A DNA stretch of 64,000 nt from Hemileia vastatrix (lineage: Eukaryota; Basidiomycota; Pucciniomycetes; Pucciniales; Zaghouaniaceae), in contig JASXTE010000011.1 of the NCBI GenBank assembly GCA_030280995.1, positions 6,951,501 through 7,015,500 on the forward strand. Direction: 5' to 3'. The notes beneath the pieces were generated by a model. That model saw nothing but the letters and a program-made list of their open reading frames with translations. It was not told the origin of the DNA and did no database searches. A program made the translations under genes and the position numbers. Below, piece after piece: positions 35,718 through 62,637 of the stretch (its first letter is position 1; every line of letters starts with the position of its first letter).

Positions 35718-35757
35718 CACCACAGAAAATTTGGGGGGTATTGCTAGCAATACCCCT
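35718..35757 (+). repeat. Left terminal inverted repeat of the large transposon
   Basis: 40 bp: CACCACAG, AAAATTT, six G, then a perfect 22-bp palindrome (35735-35756) centred on CTAG, then T. It matches the right end with two mismatches and one extra G. The inner palindrome means each end alone can form a hairpin. Confidence 0.95.
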
Positions 35758-35768
35758 CATTTAAAAAT

Positions 35769-35808
35769 GTTGGGAAGTGGTTGGAAAGCTGTTGGAAGGC
35801 TGTTGGGA
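35769..35808. promoter_or_regulatory. Left subterminal 11-bp-phased repeats
   Basis: GTTGG(G/A)A occurs at 35769, 35780, 35791 and 35802, exactly 11 bp apart, starting 12 bp inside the terminal repeat. CACTA elements are known to carry subterminal motifs bound by an element-encoded protein; that this is such a region is inference. Other loosely related words (GGTTCAA, AGCTTGG) follow up to about 35960. Confidence 0.75.
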
Positions 35809-36611
35809 GTTCATTGTGAAACCAGATTTAAATTAATTGGACAAAGATTTGGTAATCAGTTAGACCTAGGTTCAACCAAACTCAATCACAGGTTTCTTGG
35901 AGCTTGGTGATTACTTTGATTTTGAGCTGAGCACAGATTGAGCAAAGCTTGAACATATCATTTAACATATCATAATATTCACTTTCCCATCTTGTGGAAA
36001 GCAAAATTTGATATTCGTTCTAAGAATATCTACATATATTTTCTTGCCAAGTTGGTAACAGAAGGTTAAACTGTAGTATCTCAATTATTACACTAGACTA
36101 CATAGATATTTGATAAAACATACAATTCAAATCAATTTTAATATTATTGAGATCACCATAAGTGTCTTTCCAAAGACTTACAAAAAGTATGTTAGTATCA
36201 AGATATCGTTCTAGGTAGTAGTTTCAATTTGGATTTTGAACTGACATCTAAAGCATTTTACTATTAGACAGAAACATAAATAAGTGTAATAAGAGTGAAA
36301 TTATTCTATTTTGTGATTATAATGTAACAATAATGCACATTTTTATTGAGAAAATTTTTCTTCCTCCACAAACCAAAATTTACTCTATAGGCTCAAGATT
36401 TATTTTTAAGACATATTATTCATTTCAGTTATCATTGATTTACTTCCAATATTTATTAAAAAGATAATAATAATACATGTGAAAGAATTATGAGCTTAGC
36501 ATAGCATATGCTAAAAAGTTATTTTGTCGTTTTATTCAAAACTGATTCTTCATTTTTTGCTTCAATTCATCTTTTAACAACCACTATCTTCAGATACTAT
36601 TCTTACTTAAT
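35809..36611. other. AT-rich left arm, no gene
   Basis: About 800 bp between the phased repeats and the SNF2 gene. No reading frame or structured repeat was seen. It presumably contains the SNF2 promoter. Confidence 0.5.
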
Positions 36612-39040
36612 ATGTCAAGTCTCAGATGTGTTGGACAGTTCTCAATAACAATCGATCAAATTTATATGAATGTAATTTCAAGATTTCAAAACTCACCGAC
36701 CCCCACAATTTTACAGCGAGGCCATTCGAATGTTCATATTTTTGGACTATTTGAAGAAAGAAAACCAACCCTTGTTGGTAATCTTTCTCAAGTGCAGAGT
36801 CAGCACATTGGACCACTATTGGGTGACATTGGCTCTGGATCTCACCATTTAAACCAAAGAAGTGCCTTGAATCCTATGAAGCCTTTCTATTTTCATGCTT
36901 ACTTGGTTCCAGTTTTTGGTAATCAGTATCAACTTTGGGGATGCCTCTTTTCTTCAAGTACACTAATCAGTCTTGCTAAAGAAGCATTTTCTTCTGCACA
37001 AATCGATTTATGTCCAATCCTGAACTACGACTCCACTATCTTTTTTAATATCCCGCATGTAATTTTTGAAGGCTCTTTCCAAATATCTCAGAGTACTCAA
37101 GATTGGAAAGCTGATCAACTTATCCGAGGAATCAAAACAGTTCTCAAAACACATCAACTTCAAGCAATAAATTTTATGATTGACAATGAACGAATGTTAA
37201 AGGAAAAGTTGGATATCATGTGGAGGCACCAGGACAACCATTGGCTTAGAACTGGATTCGATGACTATAAAGATCAGTTTCCTAACAATCAATTGCCGCC
37301 TGAAGGAAACGGGTCAATACTTGCTGATGATATGGGTTTGGGAAAGACACTTTCAACTCTTTCTCTTATAAGTGCAACTCAAGGTGAAGCAAGACAATTC
37401 CAGGTATCAGAAAATCAAGAAGGTATTAATCGGAGTTCAGCCACACTGATTATATGCCCCCTGGCAACACTATCGAATTGGATCAATGAAATAAGTGTGC
37501 ACTTTGAAGATAATGCACTTCCTTTCAAGGTTCTTTATGGGAAGGATTGTCAAAATACTAATGTCAATGAGCTACAGGACACTGCTATTGTTTTAACGAC
37601 CTATGAAATAGCTAGCCCAACGATGTCAAAAAATCAAAGCCAAAAAAAGATACCGGTGACTCAAATGCTCTTTTGGTATAGAGTTGTTTTAGATGAAGCT
37701 CAGTTAGTGCCCATTTCTATATCTAAAACTTAAAACTTAATTTTTATTATCAATTTTTATAAATATTCTTTTAGTTACATTAAAAATCCTTACTCGCAGA
37801 GGGCTCAAACAATATTTGACTTGGAATCCCAACACCGACTATGCTTGACTGGAACTCCACTTCAGAACAGGCCCACTGACCTTCAAAGTCTCATATTTTT
37901 TCTTAGAATCGAAAAGTGGCAAGAAGACTGGTTATGGAAGAATTTCCTTTTTCCAGGTTTGCAAAAAGGAAAGGCTAATTCTATTAAATCAATCAATCAC
38001 TTAATGAAAGTCATAAGCCTACGTAGAACAAAGGATGCAATTTTGTCTCTTCCAAAAAAGATTCAAAGGGGGATATCGGTTCAATTAGCAGATCCATGGA
38101 GGTCTAAACTTGATGTGCTTCAAGAAGGATTCACTGAGCAATATGGGCCCTCCAGAAGCACTGACTTCCCTTGGGACTCATCTGAGTTTCTAAGAGAGCT
38201 GATGATTTTAAGAAAATTCTGCAACCATCCAATCTACGAAAATCTGGATGAAACTCCAACTTTTGATTTCACCTGGCAGCATTCCGCAAAGATTTGTCAT
38301 CTTATAGGCCACTTAAAAAACTTTTTGTCTGGTGAAAGGGATATAAATTTTCCAAAAGCTGTTATATTCTCCAACTTTGCAGACTTTTTGCAGATGTAAG
38401 TGATTCTATAATGAATTGTTTTACAAAATTGTGTTGGCTTATTAAAAACAATTTTCTAATATTTCAAAATAGAATAAAAATGGCTTTAGATGACCACAAT
38501 ATTAGGTATACCCAGCTTACGGGTGAACTCAGCCGGACAAAGCAAGACAAAAATATGCATGAATTCCATTTTAATAAAAATTGCCAAGTTTTGGTTGGAA
38601 CGATTCAGGCTGCAGGAGTGGGTATAGATCTCAGGTGTGCTCAAAATGTATATATAATGGTGAGCTCAATGTCTTTTATTTCATATTAAGAACAAAAATA
38701 TTAAATTTTTTATATGTTCAATGTTGAAATAGGAGCCAAATTGGAATCCAGCAGTTGAGCAACAGGCTGTTGATCGGCTGTATAGAATGGGGCAGCAAAA
38801 TGAAGTAAATGTTTTGAATTATTTTGTACAAGGAAGTATAGAATTCAGCATGTATAAGATTCAAAGGAAAAAAATGGAGCTAACAATGTAAGCCAAATTT
38901 CATTTCTATAAATTTTAATGATAATAGTAATCATTAAAATTATGTTTTTGTTTTCAAGGCTAAGTGTCCCAAACAGTGGAAATGAGGAGTATGAGTGTGC
39001 AAACCTATTATTAAGGGAGTTTGTCAATCACTCACATTAG
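36612..39040 (+). CDS. SNF2-family ATPase (RAD5/HLTF-like core, no RING)
   Basis: Predicted exons 36612-37702, 37775-38395, 38473-38659, 38733-38887 and 38959-39040 encode 711 residues with phases agreeing at every junction. Motif I is ADDMGLGKT with K245. Motif II is DEAH (361-364), whose His codon spans the first intron and is followed by YIKNP. Later parts are TGTPLQNRPTD, LRRTKD, TGELSRTKQDKNMHEF, GVGIDLRCAQNV and QAVDRLYRMGQQ, the C-terminal helicase core. SNF2 proteins use ATP to translocate on DNA and remodel chromatin or protein-DNA complexes. RAD5/HLTF/RAD16 relatives usually have a RING between the lobes; none is seen. It is probably functional; its role in the transposon is unknown. 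The 3' end overlaps the convergent neighbour by 17 bp. Confidence 0.88.
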
Positions 39041-40145
39041 AGGAACAAAGAATTTCAAGGAGAGCAGGTAAATTTATGGGATTTTGAGGATTTAAAAGTC
39101 TGAGTTGTTGAGGATTTAGAGATGCAAGATATAAGGGAGAATAACAGTCATTCGGCAAACCCCGGGGGACATGAGAAGGATTAAGGTTAGGGGATAATGT
39201 TGAAACCAAACTGATTCTTTTGTACAAGGCCAAGTCCTTTAGCACACTGCCAGAGTAGGTTGAATTATCTCGAATATCAAAGTGTTGTTGGTCAAGATAT
39301 TGTGCAACTTTAGAAAAATCTTCAGACCTCCATTGCATTAAGATACGTCTTAACGATCCATCATTATCAATTTCGGTGTCTGAACAACATTTGATGTTTG
39401 TGAAAAGGTTGTGATAAGTTTCACAATGTGGAAGTTGTTTAAGAAGTTTAGTTCGGTTAACTGAATTCTAAGAATCTTTGTTATTTGAAATAAAGGTCAT
39501 AAATAAAAACGGTTGAAAAAAAAGGGATTTTCATACTTTTTTTTTTATTCTATATTTATGCTTTCTCACTTTGATTATTTCTTGAGAGCTATGAGAATCC
39601 TTCCCAAGTCTTAATCTATCAGCATGACCTAAAAACCAACGGTGAAGAACTCCTATTTGATTTGAGAAGCTAATTTGAGTTGAGTCAATTGGATATGCAA
39701 TCAAATTATTGGTTTTTAAGGCATTGTCCCAGTGTTTAATGAGAATATTTGCCAAGACCTGGTTCCATTTGTCAAACCAATCTAGGTTCCAAGCAAAAGT
39801 TGATCCTGGGAAACCACACATGCGAAGGTGCTCAATAAAAGATTCACGGAAAATTGGTGGAAACTTTTCTGAAACCGCTGAATTTGATTCTGGATGAGGT
39901 AGTTCAAAGGCAATGTTGCAAGAATTCATGTCGAATGATGAAAATCTGTCTAATTGCTCTTCAGTAGGGTTTTGTTTCCATCCATTTGATTCTGGTGACA
40001 TATCCAAAAGTGAACGACAAAAATTGTGTATAGATCTACAAAAGTGAGAATTGAATGGAGGCAAAGTCTCATTAAAAATTCTATTAAGTGTTCTTGTGTT
40101 TGTGGGCAGGTTTCCATGAGGAAAGTAAGAGCTACTAGGGTTCAT
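39024..40145 (-). CDS. Unrecognised two-exon gene, convergent with SNF2
   Basis: Exons 39537-40145 and 39024-39467 (intron 39468-39536, GTATGA..TTCTTAG, phase 0) encode 350 residues from ATG 40145. I do not recognise the family. Visible features are an N-terminal half with GFPGSTFAWNLDWFDKWNQVL and HRWFLGHADRLRLGKD, a basic run KVRKHKYRIKK at the exon end, and a second exon with NRTKLLKQLPHCETYHN and RRILMQWRSEDFSKVAQYLDQ. Both exons are fully open and the phase fits, so it is probably a real gene. No membrane segment or signal peptide is apparent. It might act with the SNF2 protein; that is only a neighbourhood guess. Confidence 0.65.
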
Positions 40146-41220: not shown

Positions 41221-44200
41221 ATGCCTCCATTTTTTCATGTATGTCAATGTCAAGATCTTGGATGTGTCAATAGAAAGTATCAAACTTCTTCTGGGTCCTT
41301 TGAAGTTGGTATGGCTTTCAAAAGCTCTAATTCTTATGCAAAACATCAAGAGGAAAGAAATAGGAAGGCCCAGATGGTTATTTCTTCCAACAATCCACTT
41401 AACATTGGAAGTTCCCGCTCCACAGAAACAGTAAGCTGTATATCTATAGTTCAATGTGAGAATTAAAGTCTTTATGATGTTTCAATGATTTATTACATAG
41501 GGGCAGTTGCTATTGGGGGCAGAAGTATCTTCAACAGTCTCTAGAAACTCAAATCTCGGGGAACGGTATAGCCAAATAATTATGTGGCAGGCAGCAAAGC
41601 TTTCTCTGATTCATCATTTGAGCAAAGAAGGTTGTACTCAATTTTTGGATGAAGAAATTAAGAAGCTCAAACTTCTAGGTGATAGTGGAATACTGGATTC
41701 TGATAGCATTGTCCGCCTGGTCCCACGCTCGATAGATACAGTTTTTAGTCGATTAAAGCTCAATCAATCATTTTTCACTAAAACATGCTGTCCTAAATGC
41801 TTTGCTCTTTATGAGTATAACTCTGAATCTCAACCATCTATACTATGTTGCAATCAACCGTTTCTTTCATCATCAAAGCGCTATTTAAAAATGTTTGGAG
41901 CAGGACAAATTGCAGTTAAATGTGATGAAAGGCTGTATTTGATGGAGGAACATCAAGAACATGTAAAATACTTATCTCTTAAAACATTTCATCACCATTC
42001 TTTTATCGACTGGCTTAAGGAAAAGATCAAACTGTTCAAATTTGAGCTTCTGATTGAGAAGAAAACCCCTGTGGCAGAACGTGTAGAGTGTGATTTGATG
42101 AAGGATGTTTGTGATGGTTCAATTTGGAAAAACTTTCCCATAACCACTCCAGCTCTGGATAGCAATGATGATGAATATACGATAACTTCAGGCAAATTAA
42201 TGTTTACTTTATATGTCGACTGGTTTAGGCCTGGTGGCAATAGGATTGGAGGTCATCAGAAGTCTGTAGGCAATATTATGATGGTGTGTATGAACCTACC
42301 TCAAGAAGATAGATACAAAATGGAAAATCTTTTTTTGTATTCTATTATACCCGGACCAACAGAACCCACAAGTGAACAGCTTAATCACCTTCTAAAACCA
42401 CTGGTTAATGATCTACAAACTCTATGGGATGGTATATTGATTGAAAAGACACATCTTTATCCACGAGGCCGGAAATTAAGAGTTGCATTGTTCTCTTTGA
42501 TAGGTGACATTCCTGCAATACGAAAATTGGCTGGCTTTTCGAGTCACTCTGCAAAAATGTTCTGCTCTTTCTGTAATATCTCTAAAGATGAAATTAGTGA
42601 AAAGAATGTGGGAAATTTTTCATTACGGAATCATGAGGATCATATGTGCTGGGCAACAAAGTGGAAAAATTCTAAGTCACATTGGGAGCGTGTATCAATT
42701 GTTCAAAATCATGGGGTACGATGGAGTGAGCTGAATAACCTTGAATATTGGCGTCCAACTGAATATTGCTCAATTGATGTTATGCATTCACATATGCTTG
42801 GCAACCTAAAAGATCACAGTCTAAGCTATTTTCAAATCCAAAATGCAGCAAAAGATCTAGAAAGAAAGCTGGAAAAGGATAAAAATTGGCATGTAAGAGA
42901 AGAAGATGATGATTTCTTTTCTGATACTTCACTGCACAAACATTCGAAAAAACGTAGAAGTAGCTTAAGCACCACGAATAATGATGATGATGATACAGGA
43001 CACACGAGACAGCACAAGCGGCAAAGACGTACGAGTTCAAGACAGTCATCAAGTCATCATGGACTAGATAATGAAGGATTGGGAACAAATCGATCAAGAA
43101 GCCAGAGTAGGTCATCCAGCTCCAAATTTATTCCTCCATATAGCGATGTGGCCTCAGTACAGTCTCAAAGCAGTGACAGTAGGAATTCATTGTATAACTT
43201 AAGGCAAAGAAGCATTAGCATATCACAGAGTGAAGGATCTCACTCATCAAATGAGACAGCTAGAGATGAAGAAAATAAAAGGAAAGGTAAGGAGAAAGAA
43301 AATGAAGGTAGTAGTAATCCACGAATCACAGCAGCAGAGCTACAGGTTGTATGGAAGATGATTGATCAAGTAAGAAGACCTTCCTGGCTAACACGAGTTC
43401 CAAAATCAGTAGGATCTAAAAAGGCAGGATCCCTCAAGGCAGCAGAATGGCACATGCTGTATACTCTCTACTTCCCTTTGTCACTTATACCCCTTTGGTT
43501 TGAAAAATTTAAAGAATCTGAATCTTCAGCTTCCTCAGCTGATAACCCAAGAGAATATTATCTTCTCAAGTCACTTGTAACATTATGCTCGATCACCAAT
43601 TTTTTGACATTAAAAAATATACAGACTAATGAGCTTAAAGATCTAGATCAATTTCTGTTAGAGTATCGTGAGTGCCTTGAAGAGGGTTGGAAGAATATTA
43701 ATGCAAAGCCAAATCTGCATATCACTCAACATTATCCTGAAATGATAAAGCGTCTTGGTCCACCATCAGGTACAGCTACTTGGTCTGGAGAGCGGGTGAA
43801 TCATATATTATCTGAAATTCCAAACAATCACCATCCACGTATGTAATGTTTGTAAGAAATGATTTAAAAACTCAGCTGTGCTAATTTATTAATATTTACC
43901 ACAGGAGAGATACCGCTAACAATGCTCAAACATTGGTATCGGAAGTCTAGGGTATTAGATCTTGGTGAAGCTGAAGATAATGATCAATGTGAGACTAAAA
44001 AAATCCATATTGATCTCAATAAACAAAACAAATGGATCCATCTAAGTATGGCATTATTTACTAAATGGGTAAGGGCACGAATGGGAAAAGAAACTTCAAG
44101 ACGGGCTTTGACACCATCGGAGAAAAGTGGGGATCGGGTAGTTGAAAATGTAGCAAGCATATTGATACATGGAAAGAGGTTTACTAGTTACCATCGACAC

Positions 44201-44599
44201 ATTGCTAATTCAACAATTGAATTCTACTATGGAAAAGATAGCCAGTTTGGGCAAATTGATGATCTTTTCAGATCAAAGGAAGAGATTGATCAAATATATT
44301 TAATAGTAAGTCCTTTCAAAGAGCTCCGTCCAGAAGAAACATCAAAGGATCCCTATGAGCTTTTCCCACAAGTGCATTGTCGGTTAGTAAGAGTAGCCAA
44401 AGCAACTCAAATTGTGATTAAGAAAGATGCAATAATTGGACATGCAGCTACTGTCGAGCACAAAAAAGGAATGTTTGGAATCAAAGACGAGGTTGTCACT
44501 GCCATTGGACTGCAGACAGTAGTGAGTGAAAAAATTAATCAAATTTATTTTCTGTTGACTAACATCTTTGTGTTAATTTGGGATTCGGGAAATTTGTAG
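41221..44599 (+). CDS. Plavaka-type DDE transposase
   Basis: Predicted exons 41221-41430, 41501-43838 and 43905-44599 encode about 1080 residues. Order: N-terminal CQCQDLGC; zinc-binding CCPKCFALY with a later CC; the core with VDWFRPGG (D310), IIPGPTEPTSEQLNHLLKPLV, LRVALFSLIGDIPAIRKLAGFSSHS, FCSFC, and DVMHSHMLG (D496); a Ser/Arg/Asp-rich insertion (about 535-640); then WSGERVNHIL (E834) and EIPLTMLKHW. These match the Plavaka family of fungal CACTA-related transposases, giving a D-D-E triad at 310, 496 and 834. It should cut at the CACCAC ends. A last exon after GTGAGT at about 44521 is possible, so the C-terminus is uncertain. All core motifs are intact. Confidence 0.9.
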
Positions 44600-45025: not shown

Positions 45026-46703
45026 ATGGATGATAATTTTGAAGGGATGTCTGTTGACCCAACCGATTCTGATTGTTTTCCGCCTCAACATACTAATACT
45101 GGAAATACTCCTCCACCACCCTCTGCTGATCCACCTCCAGATGCATCTCAATCTGTACCACCTAATCCTAACCCACCACCTAATCCCAATCCAGGCCAAG
45201 AGTCTCATTCAGAACCGAGAAATTTTAATCCCAATCATCCTTCTGCTTCTGAAAGTGCTGATCAGCAAGCTGATCAGCTAGGAAGAGATTGGGCTAGTGA
45301 AGTATTGAGGGAATTTTTCGGAGACCAATCATCATCTGCTCAGCCTAACCAAGGAGCAAGCACAAGTGGAGCAGGTAAGTAAAATTTGTAGTGTATTCTT
45401 TTATTGAAAAATAACCAATTTAATTAACTTATTTGAATTGTTAGTGAATCCCTCAATCATTATGGGTATCAGTGATTACCACAGACTCAATTCAGCAGAG
45501 TCTCATGAGCGAGAACGGGGGTTAAGGGCTGTAAGAGGCTTAGTTAGAAGGAATGATGTTCCCAGGAGCTCGGACAGTCTAAATAGAAATATTTACCACT
45601 TTCTGAAGTATTGTCTTGGGGGACCAACACAAATATCAAAATATCCTGCGAGCCCAACACCTTTGGAGATTGAAAATTGGAAAGATTGGAGCCAATTCAA
45701 ACTAAAAACCATTCAAACTGTCCTAACCCAAGTCCAATCTTCTAACCGTGCCAATTCTGCAGCTGATCGACAATTTCTGATAACCAATTCTATAGCCTTC
45801 TTGCGATCCAAAATTCGACTACCCGAATTTTTTCCAGCACCTGAGCCTCGAGGACTAAAAGGAGGAGCACCGATCCCACTTTCTGTCAAAAGAAACTTAG
45901 AGCGTGAATTGCAAGAAAAAGGTTTTCGGAAATTCATGTTTGATTGGACTTGCCGTGATTTTTCAGAATCAACTTGGAATCAAGTCATGGGAAGCATAGT
46001 ATGCGACCACTGTACCAGATGGCTCACCACCTTGAATACAATCGATCAGTCAAAGCTTCAGTTCACTCAATGTGTTATTGCGAAATGGGTAGTTAATAAG
46101 GGGAAGGAGATGATAAGGTTGTTTGGGCAAGAAGAGGAAAGGGTAGCAAGAGAAAAGATTGAAAAGAGGGCAAGGGCACAAGTAAAACGTTATCGGACCA
46201 AGGTAAGTTTTTAATTTTACTTTGCTTTTTGTTATTATGAAGCTGATTTAGTTGGAATTCAGATTGCTAGTGCACGCTACAAGTTAGCAAGAGATCTCTG
46301 CAGTGATGTGCCAGGTTTTGTTGTGCTTTTTCATGATACTAGGTGCATCTCTGATATTGAGGAAGGCCCAGCACCAGCCCCAACTGCACCTATCCGAGCT
46401 ATTCCTGGATGGCGAAATCCTGAACTCAATGATTTGTTTAAAAAAATGGATAAGATGACAAAGGACTTAGCCCATACACCAGCTCAAAAAAAATCAACAT
46501 TAAAAACATATTCACGGTCATCAGAAAGGACAGTTGCACAAAATGGTATATTCAATGTTCCCAAATACCTCCCCAAGAATTGCTATTCAGCAACATTTTT
46601 GCAAGGATTATCTGTGAATGAACGTGAGTCACTTGGGGTTGGAGCTGATATTGATCTGGTAAAGATTCGGGAATCAATTAATAGAGCATCAACATCATCA
46701 TAA
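45026..46703 (+). CDS. Unrecognised three-exon gene downstream of the transposase
   Basis: Exons 45026-45374, 45445-46202 and 46263-46703 join in phase to 515 residues. I do not recognise the family. The first about 115 residues are Pro/Ser/Asn-rich and acidic, probably disordered. The middle has ERERGLRAVRGLVRRNDVPR, WKDWSQFKLKTIQTVLTQVQ, FMFDWTCRDFSESTWNQVM and CDHCTRW. A basic helix (EERVAREKIEKRARAQVKRY) ends exon 2. The C-terminus has FNVPKYLPKNCYSATFL. The disordered-acidic plus basic-helix layout would fit a DNA-binding accessory factor like those of CACTA elements, but nothing directly shows it. Introns are 60-70 bp with standard borders. Confidence 0.7.
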
Positions 46704-46919
46704 CTTAGGTATAACGGTGATCTTCTGTGTAATATAGCTATCTTATATTGAATTTTATGTATTCTGTTTTTTTTCAAAGCAGCTTGGTAAATGTTATAAA
46801 GTGATATTGAGAGAGAGTAACATTTTATTTAAGAAAAACAAATAATGTATGAGATATAAAAATGTATTTTCAACAAATTGATGGTCCATACCTCTTTATG
46901 TCACATTTATGTATCCATA
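46704..46919. other. Short spacer before the palindrome array
   Basis: 216 bp of AT-rich DNA after the stop codon; no feature seen. Confidence 0.4.
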
Positions 46920-48855: not shown

Positions 48856-49890
48856 CAGGATCCATGAAGTTTATCAATAGTGTATGAGTTAAGTTTCAAG
48901 TCATATGTTTCATCATTTTCTTGCACCCATTTCTAGGTTATCTCAACAATTTTTTTCAAGTTTTATTATATTAATCAAAACTGTGGTAAGTTGTGAAAAA
49001 TTAGCTAATCCAAATCTCAAATTGAATATTAATATTTTAATAATTTTGAATGTTGCTTAAGGTATTTCATTGGGTGATTCATAATAATATTTTATCAACT
49101 TAGTAGTCCTATAACTTTTGAAAAGTAACAATTTTGGTATAGTTAGGGACAACAATGCAATATCTTGTGCAGACTAAGATATATTGCAAAATAAAACTAT
49201 TCAATTTTTTTTTTTCCCTTAGTTGTATCCAAGTTTATCAAAGGTTTGGTCACGGTGCCCACACCCTAGCCTGACACTCCTCCTGTCACTTAAAAAACAA
49301 ATTCTTATCTTAAATTCTAATGTTACCAATTTTATATTTATAATTCATTTCTTGTTTGATGAGGCATATCAGTATATATGTGAATCTCGCATTGTCATCT
49401 GAAATTAAATTTAACAAATATTCATAAAGTATTATCCTTTTTTTTCATATAATATACTAATTAAGTGTATCTCCATTGTTTAGGAGTAAATTCTAATTTA
49501 AAAAATTTTGTATTTACCCGTGGCAATTTGAATATGGGATATAAATTTGTTATTATTTGTTTTTCACACTAAAAGTCCCCAAAGAATTACTAGTATTTTC
49601 TGTTAGCTACATCAAATTTCGCTTCAATATAAACAGATTGTGATTTAGCATGTTACTCAGTTTACCCCACTATGAATAATACATGTTAAAAAAAGCTCAA
49701 ATAATATAAAATCCCCCTCTTTATGTTTTCTGTTTCTTTCATCCTCACTTTAATTTTAATCTTATTCAATTTTTTATCCTATTAAAATATCAACTTCAAT
49801 TTTCTAGAATAGAGTTTCTTATAATTATTCATCATATTACATCATAATTTTTTGATATCGAATACTTTTTTTTAATATTCATTAATCAAT
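48856..49890. other. AT-rich spacer with a possible LTR remnant
   Basis: No gene. At 49236-49290, GTCACGGTGCCCACACCCTA then GCCTGACACTCC and a run before AAAAAACAAA resembles a gypsy LTR start plus polypurine tract on the minus strand (compare 17935-17975). No pol sequence follows, so at most a fragment is left. Confidence 0.35.
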
Positions 49891-52323
49891 ATGTCTAGTA
49901 TACAAAATCCTACACCTCCACTTTGTATGTATATCATGTTCCTCTCTCTTAATTTATATATTTCACTTATGTTCTATATCTTTTTTTTTTCAAAAATTTG
50001 ATTTTCCAGCACCCAAATGTGTTTCATCCCACTCTCTGATTGATACTCGCTTTGAAGCTTTTGAGCTTGCACCATGTCTGCCACATGGCATGGCACCTAA
50101 CCCTCCTGTACTTAGCAATGAGAGGCAGGAAATAACGAGAGTTCAGTATCGCAATTTACTTGAATTGGCTAGAGATAAAACAGAAGAGCTTGTCAAGATC
50201 CTTAACAATAATCCTTCTCCTTCATATTTATCTAACCCTTGTAATGAATTACTCCAATATGTGAAAAGCCTTGAAAAATGTATGTTCATCACCTTTTTTG
50301 TCTCCTTTTAAATTAGTAGATAAGATTATTAATATTTTTTTTTCTTCATATATATTTGTAGCTTATGAGGAGGGTATGATTCCTCCTGATGAAGTCATTG
50401 TCATTAGGGATGATGATGAGACAGATGAACCATCAGCTTCAACTCATGCTTCAACTTCTAAGGAAAATCTTGAAACACCTGTTATCCGCTCCAAGAAAAA
50501 GAGATTATCCCAAGGCTCCTCTTTTGTTCGACGTATTAAACCGGCTTCTGCTAATGAATTTTCTGATGTATCAAATAATAAATCTCAAAAAAAAAGCAAA
50601 GGTTTTGATAATGAGTATATTCTTGTTTCCTTTTTTTTTTATTGTTATTCTTTTATCTTTAAAATTCAATCATATATCTCTTTTATTGCTTACATATTGT
50701 ACTTTTTATCTTTCTTTTGATATTTTGTACCAGAAACTCACCTGCTGTAGATTGTTCCATCCATAAACGCCCTCTCCCTGATGAAGATGATGAAAAGAGC
50801 AATGAAAATAGCGATGATCAACTATCAGAATATGAAGCTATGCTTGTTCATCAAAAAAAGCAAAGTTTAAAATCTTCTTCAAGACATGTTGATATGTTTG
50901 ATAAAGATGATGATTCAAACAGCTCATCACCGAATTCCTTCATTTCTAAGAAGCAATACCCATCACCTCCTAAATTACCTACTTTGACCTCTTTGAAAGC
51001 TTCTCTACCAATGAAATCAACTCCAATCAAGATATCGAAAAAACCTCTAACTTATTCACCCTCAGTTCTAAAAGAATCTGATTTGCAGGAGGAATTCTGT
51101 AAAATTCATAATTTTTATAAAGGTAGAATCAGCACGGCAAAGGTCCTAAGGTCGTGGTTGGAAATTGTTACTCTCCTCGAATTACGCTCTTCTACTTATT
51201 CCCAAGAACCCATGTCAAATATTCCAATGTTTACTTTTCATTGGGAAAAATCTTGTGGAGAAGATTGGCTTTCAAAACTTACTGAGTTATGTAAGTTACC
51301 ATAATTTTTAGTCTTGACTTTTGTTCTTTTACTTATTTTTTTTTTCCTTTTGTAGCAAATATTTTTTTAGAGATTGATAGCTCACAGCTATGGGTACTCG
51401 ATAATATTGATTTCAAAAAAATGGAAGATTTATGTGATCCTGATGGTTTAAATACTGAAATTCTTTCCTCAACAAAGAAAACGGATCACCCTGAATCCAA
51501 TCTTATCCGAATGCTCATGAGATTAATGATCCCAAGTGACCACTGCCGTTCTTCATGGGTATCTCTTATATCATCTTCACTTTATCTGACCGCACATGAA
51601 TTCAGCCAGCTTCCATCACATCAAAACATTAACTCAGATTGTCCAATTGAACGTGGTCTTCAGCTTCTAGCTCACCTTTCAAATCTGAAGAGTCCGATTT
51701 CTGATGGCTTAGAAGTTGGTCCCACTGCACTTCAAACCCGTGATATATCAATGTCAACTCTTCTTCAAATCAGCAATATTATCATTGATATAATTATGTC
51801 AATTATCATTCTTAAATCAAAATATTGTGCTGCAACAATATCAAGTGGCAAGACTAGTGAAGCTCAACAATCAAGTGAGAAAAACGAAAATACTGAACTG
51901 ACTATAAGGAGAGAGAAACAAAAGGCTGCACTAAACAAAATAAATTCTGAATACTCCCACCACCGATATCAATCTTTCACATTCTATATAATTGATGGTG
52001 TCCGTGGTTTATTTCTGAGCTCTCAAGATCATAGATTGGCTTCAGCAGCTGATTGCTTGGAGGTAATATCAGAAGTTAAGTTTCTTAATTTACATGAAAA
52101 AAAAAATCATTTGATGGAAGAAATAATTTGGAAAAATTTAAATAACTATATTTTAACATTAATAAAACCTTTTATAGGCAAGTGTGATCCATTTCCTTTA
52201 AAATTTGATACCCCAAGCCCTCCGGGAATTGCTAGGGCTATTTCTGCAGATTTTCTTAATCACTGGAGCTCCATTCAGCCAGTATCACCTTTTTTTGCTA
52301 AACATAGCCTTTCAATAAATTAA
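49891..52323 (+). CDS. Unrecognised five-exon gene
   Basis: Exons 49891-49924, 50010-50279, 50362-50614, 50734-51290 and 51356-52323 join in phase at every junction to 693 residues. I do not recognise the family. Residues about 100-280 are acidic and Ser-rich with a basic KKKRLSQ patch, probably disordered. The second half looks folded: FCKIHNFYKGRISTAKVLRSW, FTFHWEKSCGEDWLSKLTEL, FLEIDSSQLWVLDNIDFKKM, YQSFTFYIIDGVRGLFLSSQ and PPGIARAISADFLNHWSSIQP. A GTAATA..TTTATAG pair inside the last exon (52063-52177) could be an intron but would break the frame, so I left it in. It runs with the transposase. Confidence 0.68.
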
Positions 52324-53122: not shown

Positions 53123-54333
53123 TTATATATCTAGATTTTTTAGATTTGTCTTAACATTAGATAAATAATACTTTTCTGATTCTATTTCTTCCTCTATTAA
53201 GTCATCTCTTTTCAAAAAAACTCTCAAAGCACTAATCAAATATTCTAACCTAAATTTTTCTGTTTTAATTTCTAAGTATTCTGAAATATCAATATCAAAA
53301 ACATTAAGCTTTTCTATAGCATGAAAAAGTCTAGTGCTGATTTGAATAGAAGAACCTATCCTAGTGAAGCCAGGAATTTCATGACATCTTGAGGTAAAAT
53401 GCCTTAGTTGATTGGCAGGCCATAATGTCACTGTTATTCCATTAGTTGCTTCAAAGTTGATTTTACTTTGAATTTCGGGAAACATAAGTTCTCCACCTAT
53501 TTGTCGTGGTTGGGTCTTATCATACTTCATATGAATGGTGTTTTTTTCTGTATCTTTAGGAAAAAATATTCCTAAAGTATACTCACTTGCATCCTTATCG
53601 AGATGAACCTCATTAGAGAACCCATTACCATTCCCTCCAGATGTCCAAGTTAAATTACTAGCAAACGGTACACCGTCTTCTTCACTAGAAACTTTTGAAA
53701 ATCCAGGAATACCAAGTTTTGCGCAAAGATTAGTTGCCTCATTGTACTTTACATATGATATTTTTTTAAAAAAATATTCAAAGTACATTGCAATCCTCTT
53801 CATTCGTTTTTTATATTCATCCGTTTTTACAATATCATCAGTGTATTCATCTGCAAGGAAAAGCATTCAAAAATTCAGTATTTAAATTAAAAAAAGTGAT
53901 ACTTACGAATATGTAAAGATTTCTTTCTATCTAAAATAAAGCCACCACCAAACATTTTTCCAAAACCACCAGCTCTTTGATGATAACCATTATTTTTAAT
54001 TTCATGTTCGCAGTAAGAAAGGTCCTTAATGCATCGCACCGTAGCTTCTAACATATCTAGTTCTTTGAGCTCATGAATTTCAAAAGTCTGCACAAGAACA
54101 TTAGGTATTAAGACACCTTTTGGTTTATAAATACTACATCCAGGAAAAAAATTGTAATAATTATTGCAATCTGTCATATTATTTGCATAAGATCGTGCAT
54201 AGAAATGTGGCTTCTTCCCGTTTGTATCCATTCCAAGAGCGTTTACAAGTTTCATTCCAGTAGCAATGTCTTTCGCCCACCTATTGTTAGAGTTCTTCCC
54301 TGGCCGTTTTTTTTTTTTCAAATCGTTACTCAT
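53123..54333 (-). CDS. Tet-like 2OG-Fe(II) oxygenase
   Basis: Exons 53907-54333 and 53123-53850 (56-bp intron GTAAGT..TTGCAG) encode 384 residues from ATG 54333. The C-terminal half matches the fungal Tet-like 2OG-Fe(II) oxygenase family: SNLTWTSGGNGNGFSNEVHLD gives the HxD iron ligands (H225, D227), IGGELMFPE follows, RHFTSR supplies the distal His (H293) and FTRIGSSIQIS the 2-oxoglutarate-binding Arg (R306). TET/JBP enzymes oxidise 5-methylpyrimidines in DNA, and fungal TET/JBP genes are known to be expanded and linked to KDZ transposons. All expected catalytic residues are present. The N-terminus is Lys-rich (DLKKKKRPGK). The substrate is unproven; some relatives may act on other targets. 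Confidence 0.82.
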
Positions 54334-54585
54334 TGATGGTTCAATCCTAAGAGAATTCAATTTTGATTTAAAATAGAAAAAAATCAAAAATTAGAAAATA
54401 GTAACATAATTTCAATTATCAGTCAATGATACCTTTAACTTTATCATATCTTCAATATTAGAAATACAAAAGTTAGCATATCTACATATTAGTAAATTTA
54501 TATACTTTTTCTTTATTTCAAATATTAAGAAAGCGTTTCAAAGGTATACTTTATTAAATTATACATATAAAGAGTATAGCTTTAT
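54334..54585. promoter_or_regulatory. Likely promoter region of the Tet-like gene
   Basis: AT-rich DNA directly upstream (minus strand) of the Tet-like start codon. No clear TATA box was singled out. Together with the repeats at 54586-54924 it is the probable control region. Confidence 0.35.
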
Positions 54586-54924
54586 CCTGTATGCATTCAG
54601 CAAGTACGAGATTTGGCTCTACACTTAATATTAATAATATAATGAAAGTATAACTCCAATACACTAGTAATATTAAAAAATTTATGGAATTATGATATCC
54701 ACATATATAAAATGAAAAATCTTGCTCTGATCAATATATTGACTTAGAAAGTTATACTTCAATAAATTATTAATTTTTAAATTGTAGCATTGTCCTGTAT
54801 GCTTTCAGCAAGTACGAGACTTTGAAACAACTTAAAAATCAATAAATTAAAGGTAAAGTACAAACAATCTAATTATTATTATGAAAAGCAAAACATTATC
54901 CTGTATGCTTTCAGCAAGTACGAG
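54586..54924. repeat. Three copies of a 25-bp motif upstream of the Tet-like gene
   Basis: CCTGTATGC(T/A)TTCAGCAAG then TACGAG occurs at 54586-54610, 54794-54818 and 54900-54924, with one mismatch among the three. Starts are 208 and 106 bp apart, close to multiples of about 105. The surrounding DNA is AT-rich and not conserved, so the motif stands out. It lies 250-590 bp before the start codon, so a control-site role is plausible. Confidence 0.8.
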
Positions 54925-56079
54925 ATGATGTTTTACTTTTCATATTAATAATATAATGGTTGAGAAAGTATTAAAGAAATATAGAAAAATGATAAGCAAA
55001 ACATGAACTTACATGTCTATAAAATCTTCTTCCATTTGTAGCTGATTGATCAAAATTAATTATAAAGTTTATTTTATAATCACTGTTTTAAAAAATAAAT
55101 GGTTAGATAAATAAATTGAACATTTTTGATAAGGAATAAAGAAAAGTAAATTGACAAACAAATAAAAAAACTTTAAGTTAACTGAAAAAGAATTTTTTTA
55201 TAATGAATCGAAAGGGTACAGTAAAAGATACCATAAAAATAAATTCAGAATTAGAATCATTAGATTAACTTGTCAAAAGTGTAAAAAAGTGTAACAAACC
55301 AAAATGATATGAAATGCAATAGCAAGAAAAATTTGCTTACCGGTAATCAGATAAGGTCAAGAAAATAGTACCAATAATTCAAAATGATAAAGCAAAAATA
55401 TGATTGATAATTTTTGAAAAAGGTAAGTGAGAAAGAGAAAGGAAAAATAAATTGGGTGGCAAACAGATGTATATATCATGAATTTTCACTGATCACATTT
55501 TCAAAAAAATGCAGCTCTCCAAGTCATATGATAAACTTCATCTAAATTCCAAGAATGATGTTGCCAAGGCACTTTACACAGCATGATCATTTTTTCCTAT
55601 GCATATACTAATTCCAGCTAGAATTTACTTGGCTGCATGTTGTACAGATGCACATTTGTGGAACACTGAATTTCACATCTAAAAAAAATTGACGCCACAT
55701 AATTCTAGCTACCATGTTTCACGTAGCTAAAAAACATACACTCATCACATTTAAATTTACATTGCGCCAAAATTAATTCATTTTTGAATTTTTTTAAAGG
55801 AAACTATAATGTGCACCACCTATTTCTAAAATATGAACCTCCGCACCATATTAAATTGGGAGACTTTTAATTATGCAATTTTTTTGCCGTGACCTTTTTC
55901 CTGATCTTACTTGGTTCAAAATATTGAAACATGGCCAATGTTGATGAAAGAAACATTTGATTTTGTTTCTATGTGTAACAATGGAAGGCTGTTTCTTACT
56001 GGCGAAAGAGTGTTGTATATTTTATTTGAACAAATTTTTATTTTTTTATGTATTTTATTTAAAAAATTTACTTTTTATT
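54925..56079. other. Gene-free stretch before the hairpin cluster
   Basis: About 1.15 kb. No gene. A weak 7-bp inverted repeat (AGAAACA..TGTTTCT, 55949-55970) may be an outlying member of the hairpin cluster that follows. Confidence 0.45.
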
Positions 56080-56758
56080 GCAGCCAGATTTATACTGGCT
56101 GCTTTTTAGAAACCTTAATTTATGACCCAAGCCTTTGAAATTGGCTTGGGTCCCTTACATTGCAATTTAGTACTTCCAGCCAGGTTTCCCCTGGCTGGAA
56201 GTGTCTCTTTCAAGCAATCGAAGTCGCTAAAAGCGACTTCGATTGCTTGCTGTAATGTTTGCCACCCTCCCAGCTAATTTACTAGGCTGGGAGGTGGCCA
56301 AAGCAGTGTGCAACGCGCGTTGCACAATCGCTACCATATTTCATGCAGCTGATATCAAGTCAGCTGCATGAGATATGCGCAGCATGTGCAATGCGCGCTG
56401 CATGCAATGCGCATTACTTGCAGCAGCAATGCATGTTGCATGTGCTGCATGCAGTGCATTGCACAGCCAGTTTTTTTCTGGCTGTGCAATGCACACAGAG
56501 AAACCAAAGTCCCTGCAAGGGACTTTGGTCTCTAAAATGGAAGCGACTTTCCCTACCAGGTGCAATCTGGTGGGAAAGTGAGAGAAACGTTAGACCGAAG
56601 TTGTTTGAAAGCAACTTCGGTCTTAAAAACATTAAAAATCATAAAAAAAAAAATGAGAAATGTAGAAAAAAAAAAAAATTAAAAATTAAAATGTGAGTAA
56701 AAGAAAAAAAATAAGTTCTAGTGATACCAAAAATCCAAGCCAATTTCATTTGGCTTGG
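56080..56758. other. Cluster of 13 consecutive hairpins, mostly unrelated in sequence
   Basis: Inverted repeats follow one another with short gaps (stem length): 56080-56102 (8), 56124-56152 (10), 56172-56202 (13), 56211-56249 (18, loop AAA), 56261-56298 (13, one bulge), 56307-56326 (20-bp perfect palindrome), 56341-56371 (12), 56376-56464 (imperfect, TGCA-rich), 56454-56494 (17, loop T7), 56497-56534 (12 plus a bulged extension), 56546-56579 (13, one bulge), 56592-56623 (12) and 56735-56758 (9). Stems are richer in G and C than the flanks. Arms are not copies of one unit, though CAGCCAG recurs in three and CCAAGCC in two. Frames across it (for example 56343-56696) are incidental. Confidence 0.9.
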
Positions 56759-58912
56759 TTATTTAATAATTAATTTTTAATACATTAAATTTAAAATTCA
56801 AACACCATAAAATATATGAATTTTTTTTATATGAATATTATAAATTTAATCTACCTCTTTCTCATAATTATATTTATAATTTTGTTTTTTTAATTTTTGA
56901 CATTTAAGTTTATTTTTTGGAAATACAAAATTAAATTTTCAGCTAAATTTTTTAGTAAGGTAAAATAAATTATAAATTTGACATTTTGTAATTGAATAAT
57001 GAAAAAAATTTTAAATTTATTTAAAAAATATTTTTGTTAGAAGAATACAAATATTTTAAGGGTAGAAATATGGTGCAAATTGTAAGTAAAAAAAATTATA
57101 TTTTTTTTTGTGAGGGGTTATTTCTATTTTTAAAAATATTTTTCAAAAACATTCATTAAATACTGAATTAAATTACTTTGAAACTCAAATTTTTTGTAAA
57201 ATAATTAAAAATGAAATAATAATATTGTTGTATTTGATATAAATTTTGAATTGGTAATATTAATGTCTCTTTAAGTAAATTTGAAAATCATTTAAAAAGA
57301 CCATGTTGATAAGTACTTCATTTTTGATATACAATGGTTATATATATATCTTATATATATTTCTTGAGTGTTATTTTTATATACATTCAATAAAATTTGT
57401 AATATAAAATGCCATTTAATAATTAATTAATGTTCAACTTAGTTATAACAACTTCATATTTAATACCAGCCACTAGTATTTACTTTTTAATTTAAAACTC
57501 CAATATAATATGAGAGTATCCTTATTTTGTCTGTATGTAATGAACAACAATAACAGACCATAAATGAGTGGGTAGTTAATTACAATAAATAGTTGAAGAA
57601 TAACCTATAAGAAATGATAAGTTTATCAAAAAGAGTACATTAAAAAAATATACTTTTGAATTTTTTTTGATATAATTTGGGTAGTTAAATGAAAATTTAA
57701 ATTATCAGACATCAAAATGGATAAAATCTAAAAGTAGTGTTTATATAATAAGCCTCATAAAAAAAAAGGATAAAAAATCTACTATGTAACTAAATTATTA
57801 AATATTAAGGTATTATTAAAATTATTGAAAAACTTATTTTACAGTTATAATGAAATCTAAATGTGAAAATAATGGTGGGATAATAGTAAGACTATGTGGA
57901 AACACTTTAATTTATACATACTTTCAACTATGTTCAGATAAAAAAATTGTTAAAATTGTATAATAACATCTAGTTAATAGTGATGCAATTTTATTTAGAT
58001 CAAGAATAAATTTTTCTGAGGAAAAACTAATTAAATTGAGATATGGCCATCTCCTTTCAAGAGATAGAATAATAATAAAAATTTAAAAAATTATAATAAG
58101 TATTCTTAATCACCATTTTTGAAAAGTCTCTAGTAAAATTCATTATAATATATCATTCATTGATTACATTATATGGAGTTTCATCTTGAAGTAGTGATGT
58201 GCAGCTTTGAACTTATGTTATGAAAAACAAAAAAGTTAAAAAATATATAGTTATACTAATGAAAAAGCCAAAAATAAAAATACTATTATAAATTAAAAAA
58301 ATAAAACTACATAAATTTTATTCTGCTCTAATGATGGAAGGGTACTATGTATGAATTTCCACATGTTAAATCCAAACCTGCTTTAAGGCTAGTTTACAGG
58401 TAGAGCTATTAAGTTTCCTTAAATTCTAAAAATAACTTATGCATTTTACTAATTATTTTTTTCTTGTTTCTTTCCAAAGTTGTTAGAGTTGCTTAATTAA
58501 TACTGTTATCTTGATTGTAAGATATATAATTTTTTTTGAATACATGATTTATTGTTTCAAAAATTATATTATAAATTTAAATCATTTATTTCATTTTCTA
58601 AAGCTTCATTGTCAAAGACACAACTCCATTTTCTATTACTTAACAAATATATAAAATGTGATAGTAAAATTTAAGGAATTTTCTTTTTTAGAGGGTCAAA
58701 CTATATTGTGAAGATTTTTATCTAGAAATTCTTGTACTCTAAAACCAAATAATTTTCTCCCTTAAGTAAGCCATTTCAAAAATATGAGAATATAAACAAG
58801 AATATTAACTTATCTTATTTTTATTTTCTTTACTGAAAGTTTTAGTTCAATCCCTTTTTTTATATGACATTAGTATAAAAACATGGTTAAATGCTACTAT
58901 ATAATTAATTTT

Positions 58913-58953
<41 letters not shown>

Positions 58954-61900
58954 TTAGAACGTCATCCTTTTTTATTTACTTGAATAAATGGCTCAATTAT
59001 AATACCCAACACTTATTAATGTTTCCCAAACTCAATAACAAATTTCTCATATGAAATATTAGCTTCTAATATAAGAAGTTTATCTATAGATGATATTCAA
59101 CATGTGATTTTACTTTTTAGATTCAGCTAAAATTAAACAAAAGGAGAAATCATGCATATGTGTATAAATGGTAACCATATGTTACTTAGAGGATTGTGAA
59201 ATTCACTCATCAGAATGGTTTAAGTATTAAAATAAATTGAGGTCATTATTTTCTAGTATTTGAAACTAATTAGGAAATTATTCTAAAAATATATTTTAAT
59301 GTGTATCATGTTTAAAAAGTTGGAAATATGATTTTTGAAAATTGTGAGTTTCTTATGAGATACCAAGCTTTAGTTTACATTGTTTCAAGTAGAATAGAAT
59401 TTTAGTATTAGAAATTGAAAGCAATGTACCATTATCAGATTTTAACTGTGTTCTACTTATAGAATGATTACATAACATTAAACATTATTTAAATCAAAAA
59501 GGTTTAAAAGATATTTAGAGTTTTACCAAATTTCACCATTTATTAATCTTTGATTTGAAAACAAACTATGATGTACACTCACTAGAAATAAGCAATCCCA
59601 ATTTTAACATAATTTATCAATCCAAAAATAATGAGTCAATTAACATGAAAATATATATTATTTCAAAACCAATTCTCTAGATTTAAAATATGATGCTTTA
59701 ATGAAAAATTATTACAAAACTTTAATGCAATGAAGTCTCTTAAAAAATTCAAAAATAGAATATCAAAACAAGTAATTTCTGCAAAAAAAACTACTAACTA
59801 TTGTAGATAAAGCATAAAAATAAGTCATATTTTTTAAAAAAATGATCTAACAATATTTATTTTTGTTAAAAAAATCAAAACATTGTTAAGTTTGCTTGTT
59901 ATAATAATGTTAAAATCCACTAAACATTATCTAAAGGTGGTAAAATATGTTAAAAATAAGTTGAATTTTATGAGATAAAAATCAACAATTTTGTATCATT
60001 TCCTGTTGTGCTATGACTTTATTCCACCCTTTTTATCTGATTCTTCCAGTATTACTTTGCTATGATCACTAGTTTTCAAGTTAAAATTTACAAATGTTCA
60101 TTATACTTGATAATATGAAAAATAACTCAAACTTTTATAACTACAAAATAAGATTTTGTAACTCCTTCTTTCAATCAATATTTGAAGAAATTTTAGTTTA
60201 TTTGAGTAATGATTTTAAGAATAACAAAAAAATTGAAATTCACAAGGAATTATTTCCAGAGACTATAATTATTTACTTGTGTAATGCATGAGCTACTTAT
60301 CAATGATGTAAAACATCAGAAAAGTAAGTTATAGTTATAAATCTACAGATTATACTGTTTCTGGTATATATATCTTCAATAAATCTTTTAAACTTATCTT
60401 AGCCTACATACCACACAATAGAAAATCATTATATTAAAAAAGGAAAAAATTCTATGATAATATCATAAAGAATGATAACCATGGATTAATATTCCATAAA
60501 AATGGTTAAAAATATTTTAAGAGAACCTAAATCAGTATTCTTTCATCAAAATATATCCTTTTTGTCTTTGTAATTTATTCCAAACAAATTTTTTGAAAGT
60601 TGAATCTATATATCTAATGCCAAAACCACTATTAAGTTCCCTCTTAGACTTTTTAAGAAATTATATATATATATATATGCATATATATATATTATTTATC
60701 AAAAATTGAAATAAAGAATAAAAACATAATTTTATTTACCTTTAATTATTTAAATATAGAGTATTTTCAGAATGCATTGTGGTTACTTGTGAAGGTTAGA
60801 AGATTTGAAGTTGGATTTATGAGTTTTTAGAAGGGCAAATATTGTAAAATTCTTTCATAAATATTTATTTCATAGTTTCAAATGTTGAAATCTACAAACT
60901 AATGGGATTTAAAATTATATTGAGATTTAAAATCTGTTTTCTACTCAAGTAAAATAAAATAAAATGATGATATCAAAATTGAAATTAAGTTTAAACTTTT
61001 GATATGCTCTATCTTCAATTTTATTGATAGTGCATCAAAAATTTAATAATATTTTTTTCCTTCATCACTTTTTACATAAAAGATAGTTTTATCATTTTAT
61101 GAATTAAAGATTGCTTATATAAATTTAACATCTATGTCAACTGTTTATGACTATTAATCTATATAATAAATTTTTTAGAAGAAAAAATAACATCAGTATA
61201 TACTGACTTTGAAATTATTCAATTTAAAATAGTTTACAGGTAGATAATGAAGGGTGATTTCATTTTTGAATATGAACTATAGAAGTCTTATTTTATCAAT
61301 TTTAATTCTTTTTGAGCTCAAATGTATCCACCGCAACTTAAGTAAGAATAAAAATTATTTTTATTGAAATTTACATGAGAAAGTATGCCTATTATTCAAA
61401 ATCAAACTTGCTCTAATGGTGTTTTTCAATCATTATTTCCATTCATAACAATAAAAAACATTTCAATTTGCTGATGTTTTAGTTTTTGATATCCCCAAGT
61501 TTATATCTCAGGTGTACTATTCACAAAATTATTAAAAATATAATTTTCGAAATACATGATAAACTTGAAAGTGAGGGGGCATTAAATTTTTAAAAATGAA
61601 TTCTAAATTCAGGATGGATAGTATTTTTTCTATTTTCACAAATGAACAATTTTTCGTTTCAATTAATCCAGAAAGAAAATTTTGTTGTAAGCATATTATA
61701 TTATATTTATTATGATTTTAAATACTATATTTTCAAGATTTGTGTTTAATATTTCCTGTGAAAGTTAATGTTAATGTGAATTTAAAGTAAGCTTGAAGAA
61801 ATTTAATCAATAGGCATATTGGATATTTAAAATAATATTTTGCTCCAATCTTGAATCATCCTGGGCTAAAAAATATCCCAAATAAGGTTTTTGTGGGTCA

Positions 61901-62399
61901 ATTTGGATTTAAGTAGGATTAAGTGAGGTTTAATAAAGGACAGATAAAAGGCTAAATTCATTACTAGTGACTTTTTTCTCAAAATAGTTATAAAATATTT
62001 ATCATTCTGGACTCAAGCTTCAATAAAGTTGAATTGAAACAGAGATAATTTCTAGCAGCACAACACCATATTTACAAAGGTGTAAAATACCTCAAATATT
62101 ACTCATAATATAGGAAGGCAAGGAATCTACAAAATTCACATTTCAAACGAGGATTTATATTTTGAATTTGAAATTGAGAAATGGAATATTATTTTCCAAT
62201 TTAAATATCTATTAGTCATTTTAACAAAAGTTTTCAGTAATCAGATTGAATTTTGATGGTATTTTGTTGTAGATTAATCATTTTGATGAGACATTTACTC
62301 AAAATTACTGGTTTCGTTTCTAATATTCCATGTGAAATTCATTATGAATCTTTTTGAAAGTGAATAGTTGACATATTGGATATGCAAAAGCTTATGTTA
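56759..62399. other. 5.6-kb AT-rich gene-free right arm
   Basis: No gene-like frame (longest about 65 codons, 60094-60291, no features), no tandem array and no relation to the gypsy elements was found. It holds only simple (AT)n tracts near 57345, 58915-58947 and 60662-60692. Such a long empty stretch inside a transposon is unusual; it may contain very old, unrecognisable sequence or regulatory DNA. Confidence 0.6.
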
Positions 62400-62470
62400 G
62401 ATCAAAGTGAGATCAAAGGGAGCTTAACTGATGATCAAATTAGGATTTTACAAGATCAAACGGTGATCAA
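62400..62470. promoter_or_regulatory. Right subterminal GATCAAA repeats phased at about 11 bp
   Basis: GATCAA(A) starts at 62400, 62411, 62433, 62454 and 62465, with intervals 11, 22, 21 and 11 bp. The same half-site is part of the TTTTGATCAAAA variants in the array at 46920-48855. It is likely the right-end counterpart of the phased repeats at 35769-35808. Confidence 0.7.
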
Positions 62471-62597
62471 TGTAGGTTCATCTTGAGCTCAATCTGTGAC
62501 AAATCTCTGACTAAATGTAAGGCCAAACAATTTCCTACATGGTGATGATGTGTGCATAATTCAAGCATAGATTTGTGGCTCAACGGAGCTCAAGCAA

Positions 62598-62637
62598 GGG
62601 GTATTGCTAGCAATACCCCCCCATTTTTTCTGTGGTG
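62598..62637 (-). repeat. Right terminal inverted repeat of the large transposon
   Basis: Read inward: CACCACAG, AAAAAAT, seven G, then the same CTAG-centred 22-bp palindrome (62598-62619). It is followed outward by the TAT duplication at 62638-62640. Confidence 0.95.

Follow-up and report, generated by a model that had tools for sequence, protein, structure and literature searches.

Genome organization of the element

The window, that is, the whole stretch of DNA analysed here, comprises 64,000 nucleotides of the genome of the rust fungus Hemileia vastatrix (assembly GCA_030280995.1, contig JASXTE010000011.1, positions 6,951,501 to 7,015,500 of the forward strand). A mobile element of 26,920 bp occupies positions 35718-62637 of the window and interrupts the pol gene of a gypsy retroelement. 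It carries a tnp2 transposase, five other genes, and an array of palindromes between matching inverted ends, and nearly identical copies of it are present at many places in the genome. It appears to be a giant EnSpm/CACTA-type transposon that amplified very recently. The features of the locus are as follows, in window coordinates. The six gene models are splice predictions with GT-AG introns, and as such they bear out the transposase and five other genes, SNF2 and Tet-like among them, that the original prediction had claimed.

17987-24175, minus strand: uninterrupted gypsy gag-pol open reading frame (ORF) of 2062 amino acids, outside the element; it serves as the empty-site paralog (Pfam domains and flank alignment)
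35715-35717, no strand: left copy of the target-site duplication (TSD), TAT; it matches 62638-62640 and is identical to the three bases by which the flanks overlap on the gypsy paralog
35718-35757, plus strand: left terminal inverted repeat, 38/41 to the right end, with a 22-bp palindrome at 35735-35756
36612-38891, plus strand: predicted SNF2-family ATPase, RAD5-like, 685 amino acids, 4 predicted exons (PF00176, PF00271; splice model; similarity to RAD5)
39024-40145, minus strand: gene B, an orphan of 350 amino acids, 2 predicted exons, paralog of C (splice model; similarity to C)
41221-44599, plus strand: predicted transposase, about 1080 amino acids, 3 predicted exons with an ambiguous first-exon border (PF02992, E 7.9e-15; splice model; residues from reading of the alignment)
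45026-46703, plus strand: gene C, an orphan of 515 amino acids, 3 predicted exons (splice model; exon 2 at 150 or more places)
46904-48861, no strand: array in which an imperfect palindrome, in its best form ATTAATTTCGATCGAAATTAAT, recurs about 18 times, inside a 506-bp inverted repeat, 46914-47419 / 47934-48438 (repeat searches)
50090-52323, plus strand: gene D, an orphan of 655 amino acids, 4 predicted exons (splice model)
53123-54333, minus strand: predicted Tet-like 2OG-Fe(II) oxygenase, 384 amino acids, 2 predicted exons (PF20515, E 1.9e-23; splice model)
54334-62596, no strand: AT-rich right arm; no genes could be recognised there, and a single ORF of 120 amino acids or more is fully contained in it; a variable tract lies at about 56.3-56.5 kb
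62597-62637, minus strand: right terminal inverted repeat (alignment to the left end), with a 22-bp palindrome at 62598-62619
62638-62640, no strand: right TSD copy, TAT (sequence reading and flank alignment to the gypsy paralog)

Element ends and insertion site

The left edge of the element at 35718 reads CACCACAG, and the right edge finishing at 62637 reads CTGTGGTG. The first 40 and the last 41 bases form terminal inverted repeats that agree at 38 of 41 aligned positions with one gap (E 6e-12). Each end also contains the same perfect 22-bp palindrome, GGGGTATTGCTAGCAATACCCC, which starts at 35735 on the left and at 62598 on the right. The gypsy ORF at 17987-24175, whose product has Pfam reverse transcriptase, RNase H, integrase, and chromodomain matches, made it possible to locate the insertion to the base. 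The two flanks of the element were aligned one by one, unjoined, against this uninterrupted ORF. The last base of the left flank fell on ORF-strand position 3191 and the first base of the right flank on position 3189, which gives an exact 3-bp duplication. In other words, the bounds that had been claimed to the base hold, and so does the claim of an insertion inside a gypsy pol gene. It had further been claimed that excision in silico restores the pol frame. Beside the junction, both flanks do share one frame of the gypsy paralog. However, the interrupted gypsy copy has a frame change upstream at about 35320 and its right-hand ORF ends by a stop at 62974, so the pol frame is restored only around the junction.

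Copies across the genome

The whole assembly (747,610,610 bases in 791 contigs) was searched with 583 bases from each end of the element. Each query returned at least 40 matches with 99-100% identity, and among the matches listed ten left/right matches paired at a distance of 26,920-27,097 bp. The flanks were examined at 48 loci. Twenty-eight of these came from the left-end list (the window and matches 2-28), and 20 came from the right-end list, out of the 30 loci there without a left partner among the matches listed. Both ends were present in 38 of the 48 loci (24/28 from the left list and 14/20 from the right list), again spaced 26,920-27,097 bp apart. Matching 3-bp duplications flanked 37 of these 38 two-ended loci (24/24 and 13/14, respectively), the lone mismatch being ATC versus ATA. 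Among the first 24 two-ended loci, the duplicated triplet was AAT seven times and ATT six times. At the other ten loci no second end was found in the fetched slice; one of them (C338) holds an insertion of ~7.5 kb. Paired ends with 3-bp duplications elsewhere in the genome, as the original prediction envisaged, are thus a regular finding.

The interior of the element recurs together with its ends. Genomic matches to gene C exon 2 numbered at least 150, with 98-100% amino acid identity; 147 of the 150 scored were stop-free. Gene C lay at a fixed distance, 9.70-9.73 kb downstream, in at least 29 of the 40 listed left ends and at 29 kb in one more. Merging the left-end, right-end, and gene C lists gave at least 173 distinct loci, a lower bound for loci and not for full-length copies. 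If all 173 were full length, they would make up 4.7 Mb of the 748-Mb genome; at the 38/48 share, the figure would be about 3.7 Mb. Three further full-length copies were compared in their entirety. All six genes aligned in each, so that the same gene set does occur between such ends elsewhere, and the three copies were ~99.7% identical to the copy in the window.

The open frame around gene C exon 2 has 268 amino acids in most of the 150 scored copies and about 420-431 in a minority. This split in frame length points to two or more subfamilies of the element.

Transposase and class of the element

To which class of transposon does the element belong? EnSpm/CACTA elements of the CMCT clade are recognised by a transposase with D, D, and E residues and with C(2)C and H(3-4)H motifs between the second D and the E, by CAC..GTG termini with inverted repeats, and by a 3-bp TSD. 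The transposase had 12 homologs, and a 13-row alignment was made with them. The second D, the following CxxC, and two histidines were invariant across this alignment, and the first D (VDWF) was kept in all ten relatives covering that part. HITQH was read as the H(3)H and GERVN as the last E, with counterparts in three of three relatives covering that part. The termini are of the CAC..GTG type with inverted repeats, and the same ends were found in 38 of the 48 loci; the 3-bp TSD was found at 37 of 38 loci and against the empty-site paralog. As far as sequence can tell, the element is therefore a carrier of a CMC-type (tnp2) transposase, and it is an EnSpm by the termini criteria of Kojima 2025 (PMC12730594).

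The original prediction had named the element Plavaka/CACTA type. Its CACTA character and its nature as a giant DNA transposon stand, but Plavaka membership was rejected because the ends CACCACAG..CTGTGGTG do not fit the TGT..ACA of PlavakaA or the CATCA..TGATG of PlavakaB as given in the available text of Kojima 2025 (PMC12730594). Plavaka does belong to the same CMCT clade, and that text states a transposase similarity to Plavaka for rust EnSpm elements. A Starship was also considered and rejected, as the element has a tnp2 transposase and a captain domain was not found: no match to DUF3435 or a tyrosine recombinase was detected in 17 of the 23 element-overlapping ORFs of at least 100 amino acids, nor in four splice models.

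Cargo genes

Two of the five non-transposase genes can be assigned to protein families. The best solved relative of the predicted SNF2 protein is RAD5 (E 4e-47). In the splice model of the Tet-like protein, an HLD (HxD) and a later H could be assigned by reading, as expected of a Tet-like 2OG-Fe(II) domain. This protein and the product of gene C had no relative in a collection of 5.8 billion proteins, and the Tet-like exon had no solved structure at E <= 1.

Genes B, C, and D had no Pfam family match, and C and D had no NCBIfam family match. B and C resemble each other in two regions (E 1e-5 and 4e-7, as single comparisons) and appear to be diverged paralogs. A fold prediction for the last exon of gene D gave a mean pLDDT (predicted local distance difference test) of 34.6 and was not used.

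Tet-like genes are also found elsewhere in the genome. A PF20515 search gave 150 scored matches over the cut-off, the best of 10,849 first-look candidates. Twenty of these loci (L068-L087) were about 22-32% identical to the element's Tet-like protein, so other Tet-bearing families are abundant in the genome. At locus L128, a Tet-like gene lies about 4 kb from a fragment of a DDE_Tnp_4 transposase; the 10 kb fetched there showed nothing that clearly matched the transposase, SNF2, or B of the element, and resembled C and D only at E >= 0.07.

Palindrome array and right arm

The 2-kb array sits between genes C and D. Its palindromes have the core TCGATCGA and are spaced mostly 85-86, 101-103, or 130-132 bp apart, and the arms of the surrounding 506-bp inverted repeat are 96-98% complementary. 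Some of the cores read TTGATCAA, as CpG transitions would give. Used as a query, the array returned at least 40 full-length genomic matches at about 100% identity. Of the 40 listed, 35 adjoin a gene C match and two more lie at approximately the expected distance from a right end. These positions indicate that the array belongs to the element. Large structured non-coding arrays, in the plural, had been claimed; one is clear, at 46.9-48.9 kb, whereas most of the right-hand 8 kb is AT-rich, and three direct repeats of 103 bp lie there at 54.54-54.96 kb.

Age of the copies and mutation at CpG

In an alignment of the window copy and the three other whole copies, most differences were private to a single copy. 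For the counts that follow, gapped columns and the tract 56300-56480 were excluded. Transitions at CpG were found in 31 of 1,992 site-copies (1.56%) and transitions at other G/C in 8 of 30,196 (0.026%), so the rate at CpG is about 59-fold higher. All non-CpG differences together amounted to 50 in 104,968 (0.048%). The low divergence and the mostly private differences imply that the burst is very recent, and the excess of CpG transitions implies that CpG mutation acts on the copies. Judged by these comparisons, the family is a very recent high-copy burst, not a lone insertion. Within the right arm, the tract 56306-56480 varies among the four copies by indels of up to about 50-90 bp and by clustered shared differences.

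In two of the four copies, one of them that of the window, the six gene models all remain open. The remaining two copies have stops or a frameshift, which hit three genes in one and two in the other.

The neighbouring gypsy element differs from the transposon in its CpG content. Its ORF at 17987-24175 contains 3 CpGs in 6,189 bases, and none of its 73 arginine codons is CGN, versus 31 of 62 in the transposase. The gypsy terminal repeat is not CpG-depleted (observed/expected 0.97 over 419 bp). This looks like a strong avoidance of CpG in the gypsy coding sequence. It seems that the gypsy lineage avoids CpG and that the element lineage carries a demethylase-like enzyme, with one element of each kind compared. 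The gypsy element as a whole spans 16808-25268, with its ORF on the minus strand; its terminal repeats are identical over at least 419 bp and its 2062-amino-acid gag-pol ORF is open.

How might the element move and escape silencing?

We consider it probable that the element is a giant rust transposon of the EnSpm/CACTA type, seemingly autonomous and amplified very recently, that carries its own anti-silencing kit. The first part of the mechanism, cut-and-paste transposition by the CMC-type transposase through the inverted ends, is well supported by the ends, duplications, and transposase residues. The transposase would bind the palindrome-bearing ends and excise the whole 27 kb, and the excised element would insert at AT-rich triplets, mostly AAT or ATT. 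For the second part, we infer that TET, SNF2, and B/C together with the array may constitute the anti-silencing kit. The Tet-like enzyme would oxidise 5-methylcytosine, and the RAD5-like SNF2 ATPase would open the chromatin of the element or aid repair or replication through it. In maize En/Spm, TnpA and subterminal repeats serve the element, and they provide a model for a role of B, C, or D at the array. By this analogy, B, C, or D might bind the palindrome array and bring the Tet-like and SNF2 activities to the element. Support for such a kit comes from the presence, in one mobile unit, of two enzymes predicted to act on methylated or nucleosomal DNA. Furthermore, CpG mutation is strong in this host, which should make escape from methylation advantageous, and TET genes occur on several transposon lineages of rusts (PMC12730594).

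Several points weigh against this reading. B, C, and D matched none of the known families, and any binding of DNA by them is conjectural. The CpGs of the copies still decay ~59 times faster than other G/C, showing that TET does not keep the copies clean; any protection is incomplete. Finally, the burst is too young for open frames to say much on selection for the cargo.

A more far-reaching version, which we hold only tentatively and think somewhat less likely true than false, is that a complete and addressable anti-silencing machine (the Tet-like enzyme, SNF2, and an array-binding B/C) let a 27-kb element reach more than 170 loci in nearly identical copies. The element would then represent a DNA-transposon answer to CpG methylation, as opposed to the avoidance of CpG in coding sequence by the neighbouring gypsy.

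The rival that deserves most attention, although we think it unlikely, is that the five cargo genes (SNF2, TET, B, C, and D) were taken up as passengers before the burst and serve neither transposition nor escape from silencing. The youth of the copies fits passengers as well, for their open frames cannot yet show selection and genes are broken in two of the four; moreover, the available text of Kojima 2025 (PMC12730594) sees TET genes as passively transferred between transposons. Yet the same text holds that a majority of transposon-borne TET genes have undisrupted frames, and in the present element five multi-exon non-transposase frames were still open at the onset of the burst (they are open in two of four copies). 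The divergence of the paralogs B and C also suggests a long residence of that kind of gene, not necessarily in the element. Rather less probable is a cargo that serves a step other than silencing, in which a RAD5-like SNF2 protein would support repair or replication at a 27-kb excision, the Tet-like enzyme would set a base mark, and the array would be a site of replication, partition, or a boundary. The repair factor RAD5 is indeed the best solved relative, the arrangement of the array is inverted and palindromic, and other activities of such TET enzymes are allowed for in the available text of Kojima 2025 (PMC12730594). However, the pressure of CpG mutation makes a role in silencing the simpler reading.

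About as improbable is a composite origin, in which other transposons brought SNF2 and TET into a smaller CACTA element and the whole later moved as a unit. In rusts, TET genes pass from one transposon superfamily to another, according to the available text of Kojima 2025 (PMC12730594), and the genes within the pairs B/SNF2 and TET/D lie on opposite strands. In the repeat searches, though, no second transposon ends were noticed inside the element (no search for degraded ends was made), and the nearly single length of 38 of 38 full-length loci argues that the unit is fixed now, whatever its origin. We regard a Starship or an assembly artefact as hardly credible. Size and gene number do resemble small Starships, and two flanks could in principle be misjoined, but the tnp2 transposase and the absence of a tyrosine-recombinase match from 17 of the 23 ORFs and from four splice models speak against the former, and matching duplications at 37 of 38 independent loci exclude a misjoin.

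Other repeats of the window

At window positions 8737-9464, the hexamer TAAAAA is repeated in tandem about 121 times and almost perfectly (99% matches). A direct repeat of at least 1.5 kb is present in three copies, at about 360-1870, 27597-29109, and 30764-32276, which are 63-100% alike by segment; the last two are 3.17 kb apart. These three are perhaps long terminal repeats of further retroelements.

Relation to known systems and implications

TET-carrying transposons of seven lineages are described in rusts in the available text of Kojima 2025 (PMC12730594). They include three TET-carrying EnSpm families of Puccinia striiformis with CAC..GTG ends, a 3-bp TSD, and Plavaka-like transposases; no TET-carrying Plavaka in rusts is reported in that text. 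The present element resembles these EnSpm families in its rust host, termini, TSD, transposase similar to Plavaka/EnSpm, and TET/JBP gene. For those families, in contrast to the present case, the same text (PMC12730594) gives neither lengths nor additional genes, and it describes no palindrome array and no burst. The main text of Kojima 2025 (PMC12730594) contains no occurrence of SNF2, and Hemileia does not occur in the paper. The claim that such an element was undescribed has to be narrowed accordingly: a TET-carrying rust EnSpm had been published, whereas the SNF2 gene is absent from that account.

Other systems share single traits with the element. In the red alga Chondrus crispus, enlarged families of EnSpm/CACTA have 4-5 ORFs, but their size is 16-20 kb versus 27 kb here, according to the available text of the review PMC6431247. 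Starships are likewise large multi-gene fungal elements, but they use a captain tyrosine recombinase as opposed to the tnp2 DDE-type transposase; published abstracts give them as Pezizomycotina elements, yet eight are placed in the basidiomycete Tremella in the available text of PMC13066641. TET-carrying Harbinger/PHISTA elements of rusts also have a Tet-like gene on a DNA transposon (compare L128 above) but belong to another transposase superfamily (available text of PMC12730594). The element is not described in the accessible portions of the open-licence literature on giant or cargo-carrying CACTA elements in rusts, fungal transposons with SNF2 and TET, and CACTA, EnSpm, or TET in Hemileia. 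What appears to be new is the size of 27 kb, together with the SNF2 gene, the pair of orphan genes, the palindrome array, and a burst of this scale. Thus, the element is an extreme variant of the recently described TET-carrying rust EnSpm and not a wholly new kind.

Cut-and-paste transposons of large size are generally regarded as uncommon and of low mobility. The present one amplified at 27 kb to at least 173 loci. Two enzymes predicted to act on silenced DNA are combined in this single mobile unit, and CpGs mutate fast in its host. With its cargo and its many nearly identical copies, the element offers a good opportunity to study how large transposons deal with silencing. Whether a transposon-borne TET defends its carrier, a question left open in the available text of Kojima 2025 (PMC12730594), would be testable here through comparison of copies and long-read methylation.

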